Translations under genes and position numbers: made by a program
Assembly (NCBI GenBank): GCA_030625925.1
Contig: DAOUPY010000020.1
Span: forward strand, 1-11,382
Length of the DNA stretch: 11,382 bases
Reading direction: 5' to 3'
Source: Fusobacteriaceae bacterium
GTDB lineage: Bacteria > Fusobacteriota > Fusobacteriia > Fusobacteriales > Fusobacteriaceae
Notes under the pieces: generated by a model
The model's database searches: none
Told to the model about the DNA's origin: nothing
What the model saw: only the letters and a program-made list of their open reading frames with translations
Part shown: piece by piece, positions 1,483 through 11,370 of the stretch
Numbering within the stretch: the stretch's first letter is position 1
How the letters are laid out: each line of letters starts with the position of its first letter

Positions 1483-1527
1483 TAAGGACAATTTATTTAT
1501 TGGTTTTTGCATAGGGGGCAAGGAATT

Positions 1528-2361
1528 ATGAAAAAAATAAGAGTTACTATCCCAAAGTATATGGGAGACATATTAAAGTATGATGCTCTAGAATTTGGTC
1601 TAAGTAAAAATTATCTGTTAAATTATTTGGTAAAAAACTATAGTCTGTTAAAAGGGAAAGATATACCTGGATTTGAAGGTGAAAAGGAAATTATTCAATT
1701 TAATTTGAATAAAGAAAACGAGGACTTTTATACAGAAGTATATAATAGGAGTGAGTTTGAAACAGAAGCTTCCCTCATAAGAACTTTAATATATGGATAT
1801 ATTTCTCAATCTAAGGTAATAAGGGAGAGATTTATATTTGAAAAATTAATAGAAAAAATTCAAAGGGGTATTAAAAATAAAAAGAAGATAAAGATTAAGT
1901 TTGAAACAGCCGAAAAAATTGTGAGTCCATATAATGTTTTATATTCTAGTATGGAAGTAAGTAACTATTTGTTTTGTTATTCAGAGGAAGATGGAAATTA
2001 TAAAAACTATAGATTATGTAATATTAAATATGTATACATATTAGATGAAAGCGGATACCCGGGGGAGGCAAAATATCTTAGGAGAGTAAGGGAAGACTTT
2101 GACCCGTTTTTATCCTATGGCCTGTCAGTGGTCATAAGATTAAGCGAAAATGGGAAGGAAAAATATAATAGGATAAAGACTAATCGACCTAAATTGATCG
2201 AAAAATTAGATGATCGATGGATAATAGAAGGGTCCGAGGAAAAAGTGAAGAGGTATTTCTCTTACTTTATGAGTGATGTAGAGATAATATCTCCTCTAAG
2301 CCTAAGGAAATGGTTTTCTACTGAAGCCAAGAAAATGATAGAAATGTATGAATATAAGTAA
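1528..2361 (+). CDS. RHH-RHH-WYL domain transcriptional regulator (predicted)
   Basis: This 277-residue protein is a predicted DNA-binding regulator with a ligand-sensing WYL domain. Residues 1-40 look like a ribbon-helix-helix: a short basic strand (K-I-R-V-T-I-P), then two helices around a G-L-S turn. Residues 53-92 look like a second one (strand I-I-Q-F-N-L, then two helices). Residues about 108-172 fit a WYL domain, with strand I-K-I-K-F, a V-S-P-Y element, N-Y-L-F-C-Y in place of the usual W-Y-L, and Y-R-L-C-N-I-K-Y-V matching the R-L-x-x-I-x-x-V strand. Residues about 198-275 fit the WYL C-terminal extension, ending in S-P-L-S-L-R-K-W-F. I chose the ATG at 1528 over the upstream TTG at 1507 because GGGGGCAAGGA sits just before it. 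It stands alone, with repeats on both sides. Such regulators are known near phage-defence and CRISPR loci, but no such system is visible here. Its target and ligand are unknown. Confidence 0.7.
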   Translation: MKKIRVTIPKYMGDILKYDALEFGLSKNYLLNYLVKNYSLLKGKDIPGFEGEKEIIQFNLNKENEDFYTEVYNRSEFETEASLIRTLIYGYISQSKVIRERFIFEKLIEKIQRGIKNKKKIKIKFETAEKIVSPYNVLYSSMEVSNYLFCYSEEDGNYKNYRLCNIKYVYILDESGYPGEAKYLRRVREDFDPFLSYGLSVVIRLSENGKEKYNRIKTNRPKLIEKLDDRWIIEGSEEKVKRYFSYFMSDVEIISPLSLRKWFSTEAKKMIEMYEYK

Positions 2362-2751: not shown

Positions 2752-3240
2752 TTACATCTCTTTTTTTAATTGTTCTACCCAATTTTCAATTCTTGTAGAA
2801 GTCATGTCATCTTGATTATTTATATCTAATGCAAGTCCCATTAAATTATTATTTTTCAAGGCTCTACTATCACTAAAATTATAGCTGTCTCTAGAAGTGA
2901 ATCCTATTATTTGACCGCCAGCCTCGGTAACAGCTTCACCGATGATACCTAAAGCATCACAAAAAGTATCTGCATATGCATCTTGGTCACCAGTTCCAAA
3001 GATTCCTACTTTTTTCCCTGCTAGATTCATTTTTTTTAAATTCTCTATTTCATCGTTCCATTCATCTTGAAGATCTCCGTATCCCCACGTAGAAGATCCT
3101 AATAAGATTAGATCAAAATTCTCTATATTTGTTAGACCTTGGGAGATGGGAACAGCCCCTACATTAAAAATTTCACCTAATTTTTCTGCTATTAAAGCTG
3201 TGTCACCCATTGTACTTCCATAATAAATTCCTACCTTCAT
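2752..3240 (-). CDS. fldA: Flavodoxin, long-chain type
   Basis: This 162-residue FMN protein is a soluble low-potential electron carrier that can replace ferredoxin. The phosphate-binding loop G-S-T-M-G-D-T is at 8-14. The first isoalloxazine loop, S-S-T-W-G-Y-G-D-L-Q-D-E-W, is at 49-61 and contains the expected tryptophan (W52). The second, F-G-T-G-D-Q-D-A-Y-A-D, is at 81-91 and contains the stacking tyrosine (Y89). The insertion after the fifth strand (about 115-140) marks the long-chain class, and the length is usual for it (about 160-175). The ATG at 3238-3240 is preceded by GGAGGATAAG on the minus strand. It has its own terminator at 2656-2681 and is divergent from the chorismate synthase-like gene. 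The partner reductase or oxidoreductase is not in the window. Confidence 0.95.
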   Translation of the reverse strand: MKVGIYYGSTMGDTALIAEKLGEIFNVGAVPISQGLTNIENFDLILLGSSTWGYGDLQDEWNDEIENLKKMNLAGKKVGIFGTGDQDAYADTFCDALGIIGEAVTEAGGQIIGFTSRDSYNFSDSRALKNNNLMGLALDINNQDDMTSTRIENWVEQLKKEM

Positions 3241-3348: not shown

Positions 3349-3382
3349 ACCTTTTGTATAATGGAATTATATACAAGGGTTT
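3347..3382. promoter_or_regulatory. Long dyad between two divergent genes (possible operator)
   Basis: AAACCTTTTGTATA (3347-3360) and TATACAAGGGTTT (3370-3382) pair over 13 positions with one G-U pair and one bulged T, around a 9-base centre. The core is TTGTATA...TATACAA. A TATAAT (3357-3362) reading towards the CS-like gene lies within it, and the candidate flavodoxin -35 overlaps its left edge. No T-run follows on the plus strand, so an operator is more likely than a terminator. I cannot assign it to a known regulator family. Confidence 0.45.
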
Positions 3383-3464
3383 AAATTTTGTCAAGAGAAA
3401 AATAAATATAGTTTAACTAGGATATATAGATTCATTTAGAATTTTAGGAGGTATCAGCAAAAAA

Positions 3465-3473
3465 TGTTATAAT
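3465..3473 (+). promoter_or_regulatory. Extended -10 promoter for the CS-like gene
   Basis: TGTTATAAT is a TGn-TATAAT extended -10 element. It would start transcription near 3480, leaving about 27 bases before the ATG at 3507 with the GGAGG at 3496-3500 inside the leader. No strong -35 is present, as is common for extended -10 promoters. Confidence 0.45.
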
Positions 3474-3506
3474 TTGTTATAAAATTATAGATAACGGAGG
3501 AATAAG

Positions 3507-4187
3507 ATGAAATTTGGTAAAAATATGACAGTGGAGATAGTTAAGATAGAAAATGGAGTTAAGTTAAGGGTAGGAGGAGTAAAGAAAGGGATATCTATTA
3601 CACCTACAGATTTTGGAATGGATCTGCATAGGAGAAAGATGGAAGGTGTCACGGTAGATCCCAGAGAAGAGATCGATGTAGTCCAAGGAATAAAAGATGA
3701 GATGACTACGGGAGAAGATGTTATTTTTGAATATTTACATGGAGATGAATTATCCGCTGTAGTCTTGGCTGGAACCATAGCAAAGAAACATATACCATAT
3801 GAATTGAAAGCATTAGCTGTAGAGATAGGTGGGATAAGTGCAGTGGAGCAGAACAAGGAATATATAACTATAGCTATCCAAAAAATGTTAGGGACAAATG
3901 ACTCTATAGGTGGAGCTGTGGAATGTATTCTTCCATATAACTTAGATTTAAATCCTATTAAAGGTGAGTTTTCATGGATCATCCATAATCTTATGAAAGA
4001 GGTAAGTGCCATTGAATTTGGCAATGGTGTAAAAGACAGCCGGTCAAATGCAAAGGAGTATCAATTAAGTAAGAATAAAATCTTGGTAACCTTTGGACCC
4101 CATATGAAAGATATGAATAAAATTCCATGTTTAGCAGGAGTTAGAGATGTAATAGTAGACTCTATTTTGGCCGTTGTGTTGTTATAG
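3507..4187 (+). CDS. Chorismate synthase-like protein, short and probably non-catalytic
   Basis: I read this 226-residue protein as a divergent homologue of chorismate synthase (AroC), from a manual comparison with remembered family motifs. Collinear matches are G-V-x-x-G-I-S-I-T (24-32), D-L-H-R-R-K (39-44), R-E-E-I-D-V-V-Q-G then M-T-T-G (53-69; family R-x-E-x-D-x-V-x-x-x-S-G...T-T-G), L-A-G-T-I-A-K-K (87-94), E-I-G-G-I (106-110), D-S-I-G-G-A-V-E (132-139), and I-P-C followed by V-R-D-V...L-A-V-V-L (206-225; family H-D-P-C...R-A-V-P). AroC is usually 350-400 residues. Missing here are the F-G-E-S-H-G histidine motif (K-I-E-N-G instead), the R-P-G-H-A-D block with the second histidine, the flavin-binding G-G-I-S-N-G region, and the aspartate of R-H-D-P. 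The frame is intact, which argues against a dead gene. GGAGG at 3496-3500 sets the ATG. Its role is unknown. Confidence 0.6.
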   Translation: MKFGKNMTVEIVKIENGVKLRVGGVKKGISITPTDFGMDLHRRKMEGVTVDPREEIDVVQGIKDEMTTGEDVIFEYLHGDELSAVVLAGTIAKKHIPYELKALAVEIGGISAVEQNKEYITIAIQKMLGTNDSIGGAVECILPYNLDLNPIKGEFSWIIHNLMKEVSAIEFGNGVKDSRSNAKEYQLSKNKILVTFGPHMKDMNKIPCLAGVRDVIVDSILAVVLL

Positions 4188-4452: not shown

Positions 4453-4481
4453 TTGTATTTTGTTTTGAAATTGATTAGAAT
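4453..4481 (+). promoter_or_regulatory. Promoter of the glm-gltS-murI-mal operon
   Basis: TTGTAT (4453-4458), a 17-base spacer and TAGAAT (4476-4481) make a good sigma70-type promoter. The predicted start near 4488 gives a leader of about 52 bases ending in TGGAGG before glmS. It lies directly after the hairpin terminator. Confidence 0.55.
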
Positions 4482-4539
4482 GGTTACACAAAGAGAAAAT
4501 AAAAACAAAAAACTAATAAATAATTTTTGGAGGTCAAAA

Positions 4540-4959
4540 ATGGAAAATGGAAAAACTATAGTAATCGGAGTAATTGGATCGGACTGTCATGCAGTTGGAA
4601 ACAAGATTATTGATCATGTATTAACACAACAAGGATTTAATGTAATCAACGTAGGTGTTATTTCACCACAAGAAGACTTTATAAATGCAGCAGTAGAAAC
4701 AGACGCAGATGCAATCATCATCTCTTCATTATATGGTCATGGAGAATTAGACTGTCAAGGATTTAAAGCAAAATGTAATGAAGCTGGATTACAAGATGTA
4801 AAATTATATGTTGGTGGAAACATCGTAGTTGGAAAGCAAGAATGGAATGCAGTTGAAGCTAGATTTAAAGAGATGGGATTTGACAGAGTATACAAGCCAG
4901 GAACACCTATTGAAGTTACAGCAGAAGATATGAAAAAAGATTTAGGAATGGTTAAGTAA
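4540..4959 (+). CDS. glmS: Glutamate mutase sigma (S) subunit, cobalamin-binding
   Basis: This 139-residue small subunit of adenosylcobalamin-dependent glutamate mutase (EC 5.4.99.1) joins GlmE to convert L-glutamate into (2S,3S)-3-methylaspartate. The base-off/His-on cobalamin signature D-x-H-x-x-G is complete at D15, H17 and G20. The second element, S-S-L, is at 62-64 and the G-G of the third is at 92-93. H17 is expected to ligate cobalt. Length matches the clostridial subunit (137). The reading frame stays open upstream to 4453, but that extra 29 residues would overlap the promoter. The ATG at 4540 has TGGAGG at 4528-4533, so I start there. It is the first gene of the operon, 47 bases before glmL. 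No cobalamin riboswitch is recognisable in the leader. Confidence 0.97.
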
Positions 4960-5006
4960 TTAAAATTAAAAAAAATGATACACTATTAAAATTAGGAGTG
5001 GTAGAA

Positions 5007-6422
5007 ATGAATGCCTACTTATTGATTGACTTTGGAAGTACCTATACTAAATTGACCGCAGTTGATATAGCGACTGAAGAGATACTGGCTACTGCTAAAG
5101 ATGTAACTACAGTTGAAGATGACATAATGATAGGTTTTAAAAAAGCATATCAAAAACTTAAATTGTGGATAGAAGAAGAAAAAAAAATAAAATTTGATGA
5201 TATTAATTTTATTAAAAAAATAGCTTGTTCTTCAGCCGCCGGCGGATTAAAGATGTATGCAATAGGACTTGTTCCTGAACTTACAGCAGATGCCGCTAAA
5301 AAGGCAGCCTTAGGTGCAGGTGCTAGAGTTATGAAAACTTATTCTTATGAATTAAATAAAAGTGAAATTGAAGAAATAAAAAATTCAAATGCCGATATAT
5401 TATTGTTAGCAGGTGGAACAGATGGTGGAAATAAAAAGTGTATCATACATAATGCTAAGTTAATAGCAGATGTAAAGATAGAGATACCTGTGTTGCTGGC
5501 TGGAAATAAAAGTGCTAATGATGAAATTATAGAGATATTTGAAAATGCAAATATAGATTATATAGTAACAGAAAATGTTATGCCAAAATTAAACAAGATA
5601 AATGAAAAACCAACAAGGGAAGCCATAAGAAATATATTTATGACAAAGATAGTAGAGGCTAAAGGGATGAAAAATGCCGAAAACTTTATATCTGGAATAC
5701 TTATGCCTACTCCAGCAGCGGTACTAAAAGCTGCAGAAGTCCTTGCTCTTGGCAGTGACGACGAAGATGGATTGGGGAACTTAATGGTTATAGATATAGG
5801 TGGTGCTACAACGGATATCCACTCATTAGCAGAAGGAGATCCTAGTAATGCAGGTGTAATTCCAAGAGGTTTAGAAGAACCTTTTGCGAAAAGAACTGTT
5901 GAAGGAGATCTTGGAATGAGATACTCTGCACTATCGTTATTAGAAGCAGCAGGAACAAAAAAAATAAGAAGGTATCTGCATGATGATCATAAAGAGATTG
6001 ATGTAAAAGCTCACTGTAATCATAGACACGAAAATATAATGATGGTTCCACAAACATCAGAAGAGATATTTTTCGATGAAGCTATGGCAGGAGCAGGAAC
6101 AGAAATTGCAATGATAAGACATTGTGGATGGCTGGAAAGTGTATTTACCCCAATGGGAGTAATGTACTATCAGCATGGAAAAGACCTTTTAGATGTTAAA
6201 TATGTAATTGGAACAGGTGGAGTACTGGTACACAGTAAAAACCCTAGAAATATACTGGAAGCAGGGGAATTTAATAAAGAACAGCCTGTACATCTATTAC
6301 CTAGAGCACCGAATTATTTAATTGACAGTACATACATATTATCAGCTATGGGACTCCTTGCAGGAGAAAATCCAGATATGGCAGTAAGAATAATGAAAAA
6401 ATATCTTGAGAAAGTTAATTAG
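5007..6422 (+). CDS. glmL: GlmL/MutL, glutamate mutase-associated ASKHA protein
   Basis: This 471-residue protein of the MutL family is encoded between the two mutase subunits. It has the actin/Hsp70/hexokinase ATPase fold, with phosphate-1 loop D-F-G-S-T-Y-T-K at 8-15, a conserved L-L-A-G-G-T-D-G-G-N-K stretch near 133-143, and phosphate-2 loop V-I-D-I-G-G-A-T-T-D at 261-270. It is not needed for the mutase reaction itself. The family is thought to act as a chaperone or reactivase for the cobalamin enzyme, which is inference from fold and linkage. Length is normal (about 460). I chose the ATG at 5007 over the GTG at 4998 because TTAGGAG at about 4992-4998 is correctly spaced from the ATG and overlaps the GTG. 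Its stop codon runs into the AGGAGG of glmE, which suggests translational coupling. Confidence 0.93.
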   Translation: MNAYLLIDFGSTYTKLTAVDIATEEILATAKDVTTVEDDIMIGFKKAYQKLKLWIEEEKKIKFDDINFIKKIACSSAAGGLKMYAIGLVPELTADAAKKAALGAGARVMKTYSYELNKSEIEEIKNSNADILLLAGGTDGGNKKCIIHNAKLIADVKIEIPVLLAGNKSANDEIIEIFENANIDYIVTENVMPKLNKINEKPTREAIRNIFMTKIVEAKGMKNAENFISGILMPTPAAVLKAAEVLALGSDDEDGLGNLMVIDIGGATTDIHSLAEGDPSNAGVIPRGLEEPFAKRTVEGDLGMRYSALSLLEAAGTKKIRRYLHDDHKEIDVKAHCNHRHENIMMVPQTSEEIFFDEAMAGAGTEIAMIRHCGWLESVFTPMGVMYYQHGKDLLDVKYVIGTGGVLVHSKNPRNILEAGEFNKEQPVHLLPRAPNYLIDSTYILSAMGLLAGENPDMAVRIMKKYLEKVN

Positions 6423-6436
6423 GAGGATCATATTAA

Positions 6437-7894
6437 ATGAATATTAAAAATAAAAAGTGGACAGAGGAAGAATTTTTTAAAGTAAGAGAGGAAGTTTTAA
6501 AGCAATGGCCTACAGGTGAACAGGTAGACTTAGCTGAAGGTGTTAAATACCTAAAAGCGTTACCTGATAGTAAGAACTTCGCTAAAAAATTATGGACAGC
6601 TAAGCAAGAAGGAAAAACATTGGCACAACCAAGAGCCGGTGTAGCATTATTAAATGAACATATAGAGTTATTAAACTTTTTATCAAAAGAAGGTGGAGCA
6701 GATTTATTACCATCAACTATAGATTCATACACTAGATTAAATAGATATGAAGAGTGTGAAAAAGGAATTAAAGAATCAGAAAAAGCAGGAAGATCATTAT
6801 TAAATGGTTTCCCAGGTGTAAACTATGGTGTTGTAGGTTGTAAGAGAGTATTAGAATCTGTAGACAAGCCTTTACAAGTAAGACACGGAACTCCTGATGC
6901 AAGATTATTAGCTGAGATCACAATGTGTTCAGGATGGACTTCATATGAAGGTGGAGGAATCTCATATAACTTACCATATGCTAAATCGGTATCTATGGAA
7001 AGAACAATAAGAGACTGGCAATATATAGATAGATTAGTAGGATGGTACGAAGAGCAAGGAGTTTCTATCAATAGAGAACCTTACGGACCATTAACAGGAA
7101 CATTAGTTCCAGTATCAATATCAAATGCAGTACAATTAATAGAGTGTCTATTAGCAGCAGAGCAAGGAGTTAAGAGTATCACTTTAGGATACGGACAATG
7201 TGGAAACTTAGTTCAAGACGTAGCCGCTATAAGAACATTACAGGAGTTAGCTGAAGAATACTGTGAAAAGTTAGGATATGAAAATATGCAATTAACTACA
7301 GTTTTCCATCAATGGATGGGAGGATTCCCAGAAGATGAATCTAAAGCTTATGGTGTAATCTCAAACGGAGCATGTGCAGCTAGATTATCAGGGGCAACTA
7401 AAGTAATCGTAAAGACTACTCATGAAGCTATTGGAATCCCTACAAAAGAAGCTAATGCTAATGCTATAAAAGCAACTAAGATGGTATTAAACTTATTAGA
7501 CGGGCAGACATTACCTGATTCAGAAGAATTAGATAAAGAGATTGCGCAAATAAAAGCAGAGATCAAGTGTATCATGGACAAGGTATATGACCTTGGAAAT
7601 GGAGATTTAGCTCTTGGTACAATTGAAGCAGTTAAGCAAGGTGTAATTGATATTCCATTCGCACCAGCAAATGTAAACTTAGGGAAGATGTTACCGGCAA
7701 GAGACAACATAGGTAGAATTAGATATTTAGAGTGTGGGAACCTTCCATTCACAGATGAGATCAAAGAGTTCAATAGAGCTGAATTACAAAAAAGAGCTGA
7801 TTTTGAAGGTAGAGAGATTGGTTTCCAAATGACAGTAGATGATATATTTGCAGTAGGAAGAGGAAACTTAATCGGAAGACCAGAAAAAAAGTAA
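6437..7894 (+). CDS. glmE: Glutamate mutase epsilon (E) subunit
   Basis: This 485-residue catalytic TIM-barrel subunit of glutamate mutase (EC 5.4.99.1) rearranges the L-glutamate carbon skeleton by a radical route in the dimer interface with GlmS. The substrate arginines known from the Clostridium cochlearium enzyme fall at the same numbers: R66, R100 and R149. E171, Y177 and Y181 also coincide, in [14 protein letters not shown], as do K326 and E330 in V-K-T-T-H-E. Length (clostridial 483) and start are therefore secure. The Shine-Dalgarno AGGAGG at 6421-6426 overlaps the glmL stop. Codon use is strongly biased (TTA, GGA, AGA, with many ATC and AAC), as expected of an abundant fermentation enzyme. 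A hairpin follows at 7936-7964 before gltS. Confidence 0.98.
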
Positions 7895-7935
7895 TAATAA
7901 TAGAAAAAATATGAAAAATTAGGTAAGTTTTTAAT

Positions 7936-7964
7936 GAAAAGGTAGATTTATAATCTGCCTTTTC
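7936..7964 (+). terminator. Intercistronic hairpin between glmE and gltS
   Basis: GAAAAGGTAGATT (7936-7948) pairs with AATCTGCCTTTTC (7952-7964) over 13 positions, including one G-T(U) pair, around a 3-base loop. The tail is CTTGAAAAA, not a T-run, so termination would be partial at best. It may stabilise the 3' end of the glmS-glmL-glmE message or reduce read-through into gltS. Confidence 0.5.
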
Positions 7965-8032
7965 TTGAAAAAAAAGAGAGGGAGAGAAGAGGCACAAAAA
8001 TACATAAATATGTATACTTAAAAGGGGGCAAA

Positions 8033-9229
8033 ATGCAAGTTTTTCAAATGGATCACATATCCACACTGTTTATGGCAATCATTGTATTATTAGTAGGTAG
8101 GTTCGTAAGAAGTAAAGTAGGAGTATTGAGAAGATTCTTTATACCGGTACCAGTTATTGGAGGAGTTATCTTCGCAATATTGACTCTGATAGGTCACTAT
8201 ACAAATACTTTTGAGTTTAGTTTTGACGGGACATTGAAGAGTTTATTTATGATAGCATTCTTCACAACTATTGGATTTATGGCTAGTTTAAAACTCTTAG
8301 CCAAGGGTGGAGTACAAGTTGTAATATTCTTAGTAGCAGCAACAGTTTTAGTAATTCTTCAAGATATAGTTGGAATATCACTAGCTAAAGTATTCGGATT
8401 ACCTCCATTATTTGGACTAGCCGCAGGATCTATACCACTTACTGGTGGACATGGAACTTCAGGTGCATTCGGACCATTATTAGAGCAGGCAGGAGCAGCA
8501 GGAGCTACAGCAGTTGCAATAGCATCAGCTACATATGGTTTAGTTGCAGGTTGTCTAATTGGTGGACCAATTGGTAAAAAACTTATGACTAAGTTTAACT
8601 TGAAGCCAAATGAAGAAGAGTTAAAAGAAGAACATGCTGATATTACAAATGAAGATCAATCAGTAGAAGTTACTGAGCATACATTCTTCAATGCAGCAAC
8701 AGTTATCATTTTATCTATGGGAATAGGATCAGTATTAGTAGGATGGTTAAAGACTGTCGGAATTACTTTACCTATCTATATCGGTCCAATGTTAGTAGCA
8801 GCAGTTATTAGAAACATATCTGACTCGATGAAGAAAGAATTAAATCATAAAGAAATTACGATTATCGGAAATACTTCTCTATCATTATTCTTAGCTATGG
8901 CACTTATGTCTATGAGACTATGGGATCTAGCAGCATTAGCAGTACCATTAGTAACTATATTATTGGTGCAGACTGTATTAATGGCATCATTTGCATACTT
9001 CGTTACATTTAATGTAATGGGTAGAGACTATGACGCAGCAGTAATGGCTTGTGGTCATTGTGGATTTGGAATGGGAGCTACACCAAATGCCATCGCAAAC
9101 ATGGAATCATTTACAGCAGCAAACTATCCATCATTTAAGGCATTCTTCGTAATACCTTTAGTAGGAGCATTATTTATTGACTTTGCCAATGCGTCAATAA
9201 TTACTTTCTTCATGAATATGTTTGGATAA
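8033..9229 (+). CDS. gltS: Sodium/glutamate symporter GltS
   Basis: This 398-residue inner-membrane transporter of the ESS family (GltS type) takes up glutamate with Na+. It is hydrophobic throughout, except for a charged linker at about 186-215 that separates two similar halves. Each half carries a glycine-rich motif expected in a re-entrant loop: P-L-T-G-G-H-G-T-S-G-A-F-G-P at 135-148, and G-H-C-G-F-G-M-G-A-T-P-N-A-I-A-N-M at 341-357. Length matches the family (about 400). The ATG at 8033 follows GGGGG at 8024-8028 with rather short spacing. An internal ATG at codon 6 has no site of its own. Its position right after glutamate mutase points to supply of the fermentation substrate. Several Fusobacteria and Clostridia couple this pathway to Na+ gradients, so Na+ symport fits. 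Confidence 0.95.
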   Translation: MQVFQMDHISTLFMAIIVLLVGRFVRSKVGVLRRFFIPVPVIGGVIFAILTLIGHYTNTFEFSFDGTLKSLFMIAFFTTIGFMASLKLLAKGGVQVVIFLVAATVLVILQDIVGISLAKVFGLPPLFGLAAGSIPLTGGHGTSGAFGPLLEQAGAAGATAVAIASATYGLVAGCLIGGPIGKKLMTKFNLKPNEEELKEEHADITNEDQSVEVTEHTFFNAATVIILSMGIGSVLVGWLKTVGITLPIYIGPMLVAAVIRNISDSMKKELNHKEITIIGNTSLSLFLAMALMSMRLWDLAALAVPLVTILLVQTVLMASFAYFVTFNVMGRDYDAAVMACGHCGFGMGATPNAIANMESFTAANYPSFKAFFVIPLVGALFIDFANASIITFFMNMFG

Positions 9230-9255
9230 ACCTATTAAAATTTTATTAAAAATAG

Positions 9256-9282
9256 TATAATTTTATAAACAATAAAATTATA
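9256..9282. repeat. Perfect AT-only inverted repeat before murI
   Basis: TATAATTTTAT (9256-9266) and ATAAAATTATA (9272-9282) are perfect 11-bp reverse complements around AAACA. The arms contain no G or C, and no T-run follows. TATAAT at 9256-9261 could serve as a -10 for murI, but I see no good -35. An mRNA hairpin 7 bases before the Shine-Dalgarno site could also tune translation. Confidence 0.5.
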
Positions 9283-9303
9283 GTTATTTAGGAGATAGAG
9301 TTT

Positions 9304-10098
9304 ATGATAGAGAGAAGACCAGTAGGTATATTTGATTCAGGGGTAGGAGGATTGACTGTTTTAAAAGAAATAGAAAAAATCTTACCCTCTGAAGATTTAA
9401 TATATTTTGGAGATAATTTAAGAGCACCCTATGGCTCTAGGGATTCAAAAGAAGTTGCCGAATTTTGCTTGAGAATAGGAAAATTTTTAGAAGAAATAGG
9501 GAGTAAACTTTTAGTGATAGCCTGTAATACAGCTACCATAGCAGCTTTGAAGGAATTGCAAGAAAAATTATCGATTCCTGTAATAGGAGTTATAAATCCA
9601 GGTGCAAGAGAAGCACTTAAGGTGACCAAAAACAATAAAGTAGGGGTACTATCGACCCCCCTTACAGCTAAATTAAATGCCTATAGAGATGAGATTAAAA
9701 AAATGAATGAAAGTGTTGAAGTTCATCAGGTAGGATGTAAACCAATTGTCCAGATGATAGAGTCTGGCTGGGAAGATACACCAGAGAATCGTGCTATAAT
9801 TAAATATTATGTAGATAAATTGCCCAAGGATACAGATGTAGTTGTATTTGGTTGTACCCATTTTCCTATTATAAAAGAATATTTTATGAAGGAATTAAAA
9901 GGGAAAGTGATAGTAGATCCAGCCAAGGAGACTGCATTAGAAGTGAAGAAAATTTTGAAAGAGTTAGATCTCCTAAATAAGGGAGAAAAAAATGGAAAAG
10001 TTTCTTTTTACACCTCGGGCAGCATCAGTAAATTTAAAAAATTAGCAGAAAAAATATTGGGGAGACCCATAGAAACAATCAAACAGGCATTAAATTAA
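9304..10098 (+). CDS. murI: Glutamate racemase
   Basis: This 264-residue cytoplasmic, cofactor-independent racemase interconverts L- and D-glutamate. The two catalytic cysteines are present: C74 in I-A-C-N-T-A-T and C184 in G-C-T-H-F-P. The supporting D11-S12 in G-I-F-D-S-G-V-G-G and H186 are also present. Length is normal (about 255-285). AGGAG at 9290-9294 precedes the ATG. The usual role is D-glutamate supply for peptidoglycan. Lying inside the glm-mal operon, it could also feed D-glutamate into fermentation, but that is inference. Codon use differs visibly from its neighbours (more ATA, TTG, GGG and CCC, fewer ATC and AAC), suggesting a lower expression level or a later arrival in the operon. 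Confidence 0.95.
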   Translation: MIERRPVGIFDSGVGGLTVLKEIEKILPSEDLIYFGDNLRAPYGSRDSKEVAEFCLRIGKFLEEIGSKLLVIACNTATIAALKELQEKLSIPVIGVINPGAREALKVTKNNKVGVLSTPLTAKLNAYRDEIKKMNESVEVHQVGCKPIVQMIESGWEDTPENRAIIKYYVDKLPKDTDVVVFGCTHFPIIKEYFMKELKGKVIVDPAKETALEVKKILKELDLLNKGEKNGKVSFYTSGSISKFKKLAEKILGRPIETIKQALN

Positions 10099-10128
10099 AT
10101 TAATCGAATATAAAAGGAGATGTATCAC

Positions 10129-11370
10129 ATGAAAATTATTGATATCATTTGTTCAGCAGGAAAAACAGGATTTTATTTTGACGACCAAAGAGCTATAAAA
10201 GCAGGAGCAGGTCACGATGGATTTGACTACGTAGGAGAAGCAGTTACTGAAGGATTCACAAGAATCAGACAGGCAGGAGAATCTATCTCTGTAATGTTTA
10301 TCTTAGAAGACGGTCAAGTAGCTAATGGAGATTGTGCAGCAGTACAATATTCTGGTGCAGGTGGAAGAGATCCATTATTCTTAGCATCTGATTTTATCCC
10401 AGTTATCAAAAACGAAATAGCTCCAAAATTAATTGGAAGAGATATAAATGAATTTAGATCATTAGCTGAAGAGATAGATACAATGGAATTAAATGGAAAG
10501 AGATTACACACAGCTATCAGATACGGATTAACTCAAACTATCTTAGATGCAGCAGCTAAAGCAAACAAGATGACTATGGCAGAAGTAATCAAAAAAGAAT
10601 ATGCAACTGACGTAACAATCAAAAGATTACCATTATTCACTCAATCTGGAGACGACAGAAAGAACAATGCAGACAAGATGATCATCAAAGGTGCAGACAT
10701 CATGCCGCATGCATTAATCAACCATGTTGAAACTAAATTAGGTAAAGATGGATCTATCTTAAGAGACTACGTAAAATGGTTAAGCGATAGAGTATTAAAA
10801 TTAAGAGAATCTGAAGATTATATGCCTATATTCCACATCGATGTATATGGAACAATGGGAGTAGCATTTGACCAGGATATCACAAAGCAAGCTGACTTAT
10901 TAGCTGAATTAGAAGAAGCTGCAAAGCCATTCCACCTAAGAATCGAAGGTCCTATGGATTTAGAAGAAAGAGAAGGAACAGTAGCTGCATTAGCTGCATT
11001 AACTGCTGAAGTAGACAGAAGAGGAATTAATGTAGAATTAGTTGCTGACGAATGGTGTAACACATTAGAGGATATTAAATTATTCGCTGATAGAAAAGCA
11101 GGACATGTAGTACAAATTAAAACTCCAGATTTAGGAGGAGTAAACAATATAGCAGAGGCAGTTTTATACTGTAATGAAAAAGGAATCGGTTCTTATGTTG
11201 GTGGAACTTGTAACGAAACTAACAGATCAGCTGAAGTAACTACAAACATAGCAATGGCTTGTGGAGCATTACAAGTATTAGCTAAACCAGGAATGGGTGT
11301 AGACGAAGGTATCATGATCGTTGGAAACGAAATGAACAGAGTAGAAGCATTAGTAAATAGCAGAAAATAA
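10129..11370 (+). CDS. mal: Methylaspartate ammonia-lyase (3-methylaspartase)
   Basis: This 413-residue enolase-superfamily enzyme (EC 4.3.1.2) removes ammonia from (2S,3S)-3-methylaspartate to give mesaconate, the second step of the pathway. Every active-site residue I recall for the clostridial enzyme lands on its known number: Q73, Q172, H194, the Mg2+ ligands D238, E273 and D307, Q329, the catalytic base K331 in V-Q-I-K-T, and T360-C361. The length also equals the Clostridium tetanomorphum enzyme (413). The ATG at 10129 is preferred over the in-frame ATG at 10120, because the latter overlaps the Shine-Dalgarno AAGGAG (10114-10119), which is spaced 9 bases from 10129. It follows murI by 30 bases and is the last gene visible. 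Codon bias is strong, like that of glmE. Confidence 0.98.
   Translation: MKIIDIICSAGKTGFYFDDQRAIKAGAGHDGFDYVGEAVTEGFTRIRQAGESISVMFILEDGQVANGDCAAVQYSGAGGRDPLFLASDFIPVIKNEIAPKLIGRDINEFRSLAEEIDTMELNGKRLHTAIRYGLTQTILDAAAKANKMTMAEVIKKEYATDVTIKRLPLFTQSGDDRKNNADKMIIKGADIMPHALINHVETKLGKDGSILRDYVKWLSDRVLKLRESEDYMPIFHIDVYGTMGVAFDQDITKQADLLAELEEAAKPFHLRIEGPMDLEEREGTVAALAALTAEVDRRGINVELVADEWCNTLEDIKLFADRKAGHVVQIKTPDLGGVNNIAEAVLYCNEKGIGSYVGGTCNETNRSAEVTTNIAMACGALQVLAKPGMGVDEGIMIVGNEMNRVEALVNSRK

Follow-up and report, generated by a model that had tools for sequence, protein, structure and literature searches.

Chorismate synthase (AroC; EC 4.2.3.5; PF01264) is commonly described as a fold dedicated to a single reaction. 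The enzyme is a homotetramer whose core consists of two four-stranded sheets with four helices between them, the active site being built from the helical layer and the second sheet (PMC3509576). One account gives His17 and His106 as the catalytic histidines (PMC7144000). In Streptococcus pneumoniae AroC, His110 is the proton donor to N1 of flavin mononucleotide (FMN), and the active-site aspartate is D339 in this enzyme and D367 in that of Neurospora crassa (PMC3509576). Here we analyzed a DNA stretch of 11,382 nucleotides from a marine Fusobacteriaceae bacterium (contig DAOUPY010000020.1 of assembly GCA_030625925.1, hereafter the window), which carries a gene for a shortened AroC-like protein of 226 residues. 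This gene and its homologs are hereafter named the short gene and the short family. No description of this family and no chorismate synthase pseudoenzyme were found in the open-access literature searched.

A short protein family related to chorismate synthase

A preliminary description of the window, made from its letters and translations, had recognized an AroC-like skeleton in this protein. As a single sequence, the window protein shows it weakly, with 24.2 bits against Pfam PF01264 (cut-off 27) and 17.7 and 14.7 bits against the NCBIfam aroC models NF003793 and TIGR00033 (cut-offs 321 and 212). Both NCBIfam models match 17 of 17 AroC control sequences, the one tabulated scoring 434.8 and 410.4 bits. 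Some short-family relatives exceed the Pfam cut-off, for example that of genus group g10 (L056) at 53.1 bits. The relationship is clear when the profiles of the short family and AroC are compared with hhalign (probability 99.7, E-value 1.4e-25, 226 columns), and neither Pfam nor further family searches gave a better match for the window protein. The two proteins are collinear over the full length of the short one, which has 226 residues against about 330-370 in AroC, and the AroC invariants G6, R47, G69, T75, T76, G77, G138, S209, G211, G255 and P305 are kept in 13 to 16 of 16 short members.

The predicted structure points in the same direction. Chorismate synthases match the fold predicted for the window protein far above anything else (Foldseek, VIA-align), and they are the only confident matches in searches of the PDB with this model. 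The model comprises eight strands and five helices, four of them long and the fifth shorter, and the beta-alpha-beta sandwich core is present in it as well as in the model of a second family member. At the level of these models, the whole two-sheet, helix-filled core of AroC is thus retained. Profiles and predicted folds together show that the window protein belongs to a distinct, conserved family of Fusobacteriaceae proteins, about 226 residues long, that shares ancestry with chorismate synthase. The gene and two of its segments are located in the window as follows:

3507..4187, + strand: gene for the 226-residue AroC-core protein of the short family (open reading frame, homologs, predicted fold, substitution rates)
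3561..3725, + strand: codons for residues 19-73, the stretch matched by the Pfam chorismate synthase model
3828..3887, + strand: codons for residues 108-127, GGI...N116..Y119.....QKM127 (alignment, residue counts)

The reading frame runs intact from the ATG at 3507 to the end of the stop codon at 4187. Residues 19-73 include R43, a retained invariant arginine of AroC, and the signature EEID...GI...TTGE. The segment of residues 108-127 is invariant in the short family, and AroC shows no conservation of its N, Y and QKM.

Protein searches gave 55 matches, comprising one AroC and 54 members of the short family, all of which are fusobacterial (Fusobacteriota) where they bear organism names. Among the matches listed for a deeper profile, the short family comes first and is separated by an E-value gap from 1.4e-73 to 3.2e-19 from the full-length AroC that follow. 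One of the 54, P0022, is a 285-residue protein on a 2.4-kb contig; its front resembles an alcohol dehydrogenase and its tail is that of the short family, and it is probably a chimeric assembly.

Loss of active-site segments and maintenance of the gene

To locate what the short family has lost, we compared 16 of its members with 17 AroC in an alignment, and counted motifs in 60 short members and 70 proteins of AroC length. Four main segments are missing from the short proteins, about 41, 24, 26 and 20 residues long when measured on the first AroC row. Three of these deletions remove AroC-invariant residues, namely those of RPGH...RGGG, of the TNNNGG..GG..NG loop and of the region leading to the G of GRHD (..Q....G before RHD); the 24-residue deletion, past the fifth strand, removes none. 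In the short family, other residues stand in place of GESHG and RHD. Among the 73 columns that AroC keeps invariant, 28 are replaced, 27 are deleted and 18 persist in half or more of the short rows, although one of these 18, P245, is aligned with a lysine of the window protein and may reflect an alignment shift.

We take the catalytic histidines to lie in GESHG and RPGH, the active-site aspartate in RHD, and the TNNNGG..GG..NG loop to have a flavin role. None of five motifs tested was found in any of the 60 short proteins, so that the loss of catalytic motifs seen at first in one protein holds for all 60 members. The first histidine motif, G[EAD]SH, is present in 64 of the 70 AroC-length proteins, RPGH, whose segment is deleted in the short family, in 69, and RHD in all 70; the aspartate of RHD is kept in 0/16 aligned short members. 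The preliminary description had also considered all flavin motifs lost. The loop, six columns of which are invariant in the 17 AroC, is indeed deleted in the alignment, but the short pattern GG..NG is a poor yardstick, matching only 28 of the 70 AroC-length proteins besides 0/60 short members, and the loss of the flavin loop therefore rests on the alignment. Judging from these losses, the short protein would be unable to bind FMN and 5-enolpyruvylshikimate 3-phosphate (EPSP) as AroC does, and we infer with high confidence that it does not make chorismate. Three members (P0016, P0034 and P0044), which lack the catalytic motifs, bear the public label “chorismate synthase”. Such a label could make a genome look competent for chorismate synthesis on account of a protein that very probably cannot make it.

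The gene had been described as maintained rather than decayed, and its homologs bear this out. Open frames without stops were found in all 24 genomes bearing it, 47 of 60 members have exactly 226 residues, and 31 positions are at least 96% constant across the 60. Ratios of nonsynonymous to synonymous substitution rates (dN/dS), which are rough since synonymous sites are often near saturation, were 0.062-0.160 in Psychrilyobacter (21 pairs, excluding seven that involve genome G061, whose gene had been taken from the wrong strand), 0.098-0.461 among ten Cetobacterium and C. ceti (55 pairs) and 0.116 for one pair of genus group g9. For comparison, the full AroC of Psychrilyobacter gave 0.046-0.112 (10 pairs). 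On these sequence comparisons, the short family is under strong purifying selection and not under neutral drift.

The short family also has a conserved set of residues of its own. E54-E55-I56, Y76, N116, Y119 and Q125-K126-M127 are invariant or near-invariant in the short family and not conserved in AroC, as are the near-invariant E65 (57/60), K94 (58/60), K152 (59/60) and E165 (58/60). In the secondary structure of the model, several of these residues fall in or beside the helical layer or at strand ends; in AroC, these elements form the active site. The residues may line one pocket. No histidine or cysteine is invariant among the 60 members, H199 and C140 being present only in the majority. 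Like pseudoenzyme paralogs in general, the short family keeps the fold, has lost the catalytic residues and is maintained beside an active-looking paralog; it differs from them in having lost whole active-site segments and not only point residues.

Distribution and coexisting full-length enzymes

The short gene was found in 24 of 98 Fusobacteriota genomes, distributed over six genus groups: Psychrilyobacter (g1, 8/8 genomes), g2 (1/2, C. ceti), Cetobacterium (g3, 10/12), g9 (3/3), g10 (1/1) and g14 (1/1, Propionigenium maris). The count for Cetobacterium is a lower bound, as the absence in G005 falls at two contig ends and G015 is 82% complete. A further 11 Fusobacteriota genomes match the model through full-length AroC alone.

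Another PF01264 gene is present in 23 of the 24 carriers, near full length in 21 and as a fragment in G000 and G059; none was found in G008, a genome 67% complete. Carriers are thus shown to keep, beside the short protein, what by its sequence looks like a normal AroC. The statement that no other shikimate genes are in view is true within the window, but elsewhere the same genome has aroA (EPSP synthase, 322 bits) and, downstream of it, the first 70 codons of an AroC gene with GESHG, the rest being cut by the contig end.

Two types of full-length AroC occur in Fusobacteriota, type A of about 357-368 residues and type B of about 329-355. In the tree, type A is found in Psychrilyobacter and g10, and type B in Propionigenium. 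Six AroC of carriers in g2, g3 and g9 are nearest to type B and all keep GESHG, RPGH, GG..NG and RHD. The short family groups as a separate clade (100/100) next to both types. A topology test did not reject a clade of the short family with type B (approximately unbiased p 0.352) and marginally disfavoured one with type A (p 0.07), so that the family may have arisen from either AroC type.

Shorter forms of AroC exist as well, among them type B of Cetobacterium and its kin and AroC of 318-326 residues from metagenomes (P0063-P0074 and P0076). P0063 and similar proteins have the best deeper short-family profile scores among the full-length AroC listed, up to 87 bits. Unlike the short family, those that were read keep GESHG or GASH, RP[GS]H and RHD. 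GASH replaces GESH in P0063, P0065, P0071, P0074 and P0076, and those included in the tree lie near fusobacterial type B. RHDVAF or RHDTAF is found in six of seven type-B tree sequences where type A reads RHDP.

Possible roles and gene neighborhood

The reading that we favour, tentatively, is that the short protein is a neofunctionalized, non-catalytic paralog of AroC with a regulatory or binding role. The ancestral cleft, bounded by the helical layer and the second sheet, would be reused with a new lining of R43, E54, E55, Y76, K94, N116, Y119, Q125, K126, K152 and E165, and would hold, without flavin, either a small ligand or a partner protein. The short protein would then be a regulatory or binding protein and not an enzyme of the shikimate pathway. 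Its own expression may be regulated in the course of amino-acid fermentation, the weakest step, which is proposed because of regulator-like neighbors and nearby glutamate genes in two genera. It is also possible, with a lower probability, that the chorismate synthase fold has gained a second function in Fusobacteriaceae, in which the pocket of a minimal core has been rebuilt to bind or convert some other, flavin-independent ligand. As to the new function proposed in the preliminary description, an AroC fold without its catalytic apparatus is supported, while the new role itself we infer with moderate confidence; that this role is a regulatory one, exercised by binding a small ligand or a partner, is the least certain part. 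In this family, the fold of a one-reaction enzyme appears to have been reused for another role. As a natural minimal version of this fold, it offers a clear test of what else the fold can do.

The regulator-like neighbor in the window is the following gene:

1507..2361, + strand: regulator-like gene with WYL and WCX domains (both just under the Pfam cut-offs)

In seven of eight Psychrilyobacter genomes it precedes the short gene in the same orientation, and in G061 it is on another contig. It is a possible companion of the short gene, and the gap of 25 bases between the two in G058 and G059 would be compatible with an operon. Downstream, a gene for the B12 subunit of methylaspartate/glutamate mutase was found in all six Psychrilyobacter regions compared. 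In Cetobacterium, a divergent S24-domain gene, with a helix-turn-helix under the Pfam cut-off, adjoins the short gene in 10/10 carriers, and a glutaminase gene directly follows it in six of the nine regions covering the downstream side. The short gene of C. ceti stands in a tight same-strand run, preceded by an HD-domain gene and followed by genes for a MORN-like protein, an IclR regulator and glutamine synthetase III. In Propionigenium, the gene immediately upstream of the short gene encodes a histidine kinase. The gene gltS is located downstream on the same strand in five Psychrilyobacter and eight Cetobacterium genomes (within 6 kb in five of the latter and at about 18 kb in three, one of them a fragment), with 63.6% identity between the focal regions of the two genera. 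Among 400 random region pairs from the same two genomes, two shared any gene at 60% identity or more, and 32 shared some family.

Several observations weigh against the favoured reading. The kind of regulator-like neighbor changes from genus to genus, the WYL, WCX and helix-turn-helix domains are all under the Pfam cut-offs, and no regulator-like gene was found beside the short gene in the g9 (L049, L050) or g10 (L056) regions. Besides gltS, no gene context is conserved between genera. The glutamate link is a lead of little weight, since gltS is missing between the mutase and racemase genes of G059 and the g9, Propionigenium and g10 loci have no glutamate neighbors. The co-occurrence with AroC also says little, because 33 of 37 Fusobacteriaceae genomes without the short gene have AroC too.

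The last count bears equally on the proposal that the short protein joins the AroC tetramer as a non-catalytic regulatory or stabilizing subunit that has perhaps retained AroC oligomer surfaces. The homotetrameric state of AroC (PMC3509576) would suit such a partner, as would a protein that keeps the core fold without the active-site loops, the presence of AroC in 23/24 carriers, and the P. maris locus (L046), where the short gene and aroC share a strand and are 3.7 kb apart. In the regions other than that of P. maris, however, no shikimate genes were recognized beside the short gene. Moreover, it occurs with type A in Psychrilyobacter and g10 and with type B in Propionigenium and in all six g2, g3 and g9 carriers tested, and because carriers have two AroC types, co-evolution with one AroC partner is not seen. 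We consider this proposal a live but less likely alternative.

A new enzyme is about equally likely. Here the emptied cleft would be rebuilt for a different reaction that needs no flavin, the substrate being perhaps a metabolite of amino-acid fermentation, related to glutamate or not. Polar residues that are invariant here and unconserved in AroC, and the strong purifying selection, would fit, as would the mutase (6/6 Psychrilyobacter), glutaminase (6/9 Cetobacterium) and glutamine synthetase III (C. ceti) genes nearby, and a gltS common to two genera at an identity rarely reached by random pairs (2/400 at 60% or more). Against it, no histidine or cysteine is invariant, no operon partner is constant, three groups lack the glutamate link, the 20 carriers with gltS have one to six gltS matches each, and 32/400 random region pairs share some family. 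That the gene is a decaying remnant of an aroC duplicate, as the missing catalytic motifs and about one third of the length could suggest, is highly improbable for a family of near-constant length and strongly conserved positions spread across six genus groups, in which neither a broken frame (24/24 open) nor relaxed selection (dN/dS 0.06-0.16 in Psychrilyobacter) was found.

Two putative start signals precede the short gene in the window:

3496..3500, + strand: Shine-Dalgarno sequence GGAGG, with the ATG 6 nt further on (sequence)
3465..3473, + strand: extended -10-like box TGTTATAAT (sequence)

The intact frame with a good Shine-Dalgarno site, as first described, is confirmed, GGAG being conserved upstream of the gene in 8/8 Psychrilyobacter regions. 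The extended -10 promoter is less secure: the TGTTATAAT box is present in the window, but only three of the eight Psychrilyobacter upstream regions (G000, G056 and G061) have one, and the site is not among the two-hexamer promoters listed by a promoter scan. These are the same three genomes in which a flavodoxin gene adjoins the short gene. No compared region of other genera has an adjoining flavodoxin gene, the nearest being 4 kb away in C. ceti, and the flavodoxin neighbor does not hold up as a functional clue.

Three other observations concern the surroundings of the short gene. In two genera, HD_3/YfbR-like domain genes immediately precede it in the same orientation (L051:7406-7996 and L056:12346-13542), which may be chance. 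Positions 4453-11370 (+ strand) of the window hold a glutamate fermentation run composed of a B12-binding subunit, a MutL-family protein, MutE, gltS, an Asp/Glu racemase-like gene, which is the odd member, and methylaspartate ammonia-lyase. Finally, a 12/12 match to the sigma-70 consensus (TTGACA-17-TATAAT) at 3366-3394 (- strand) points toward the flavodoxin gene at 2752-3240 and away from the AroC-like gene.
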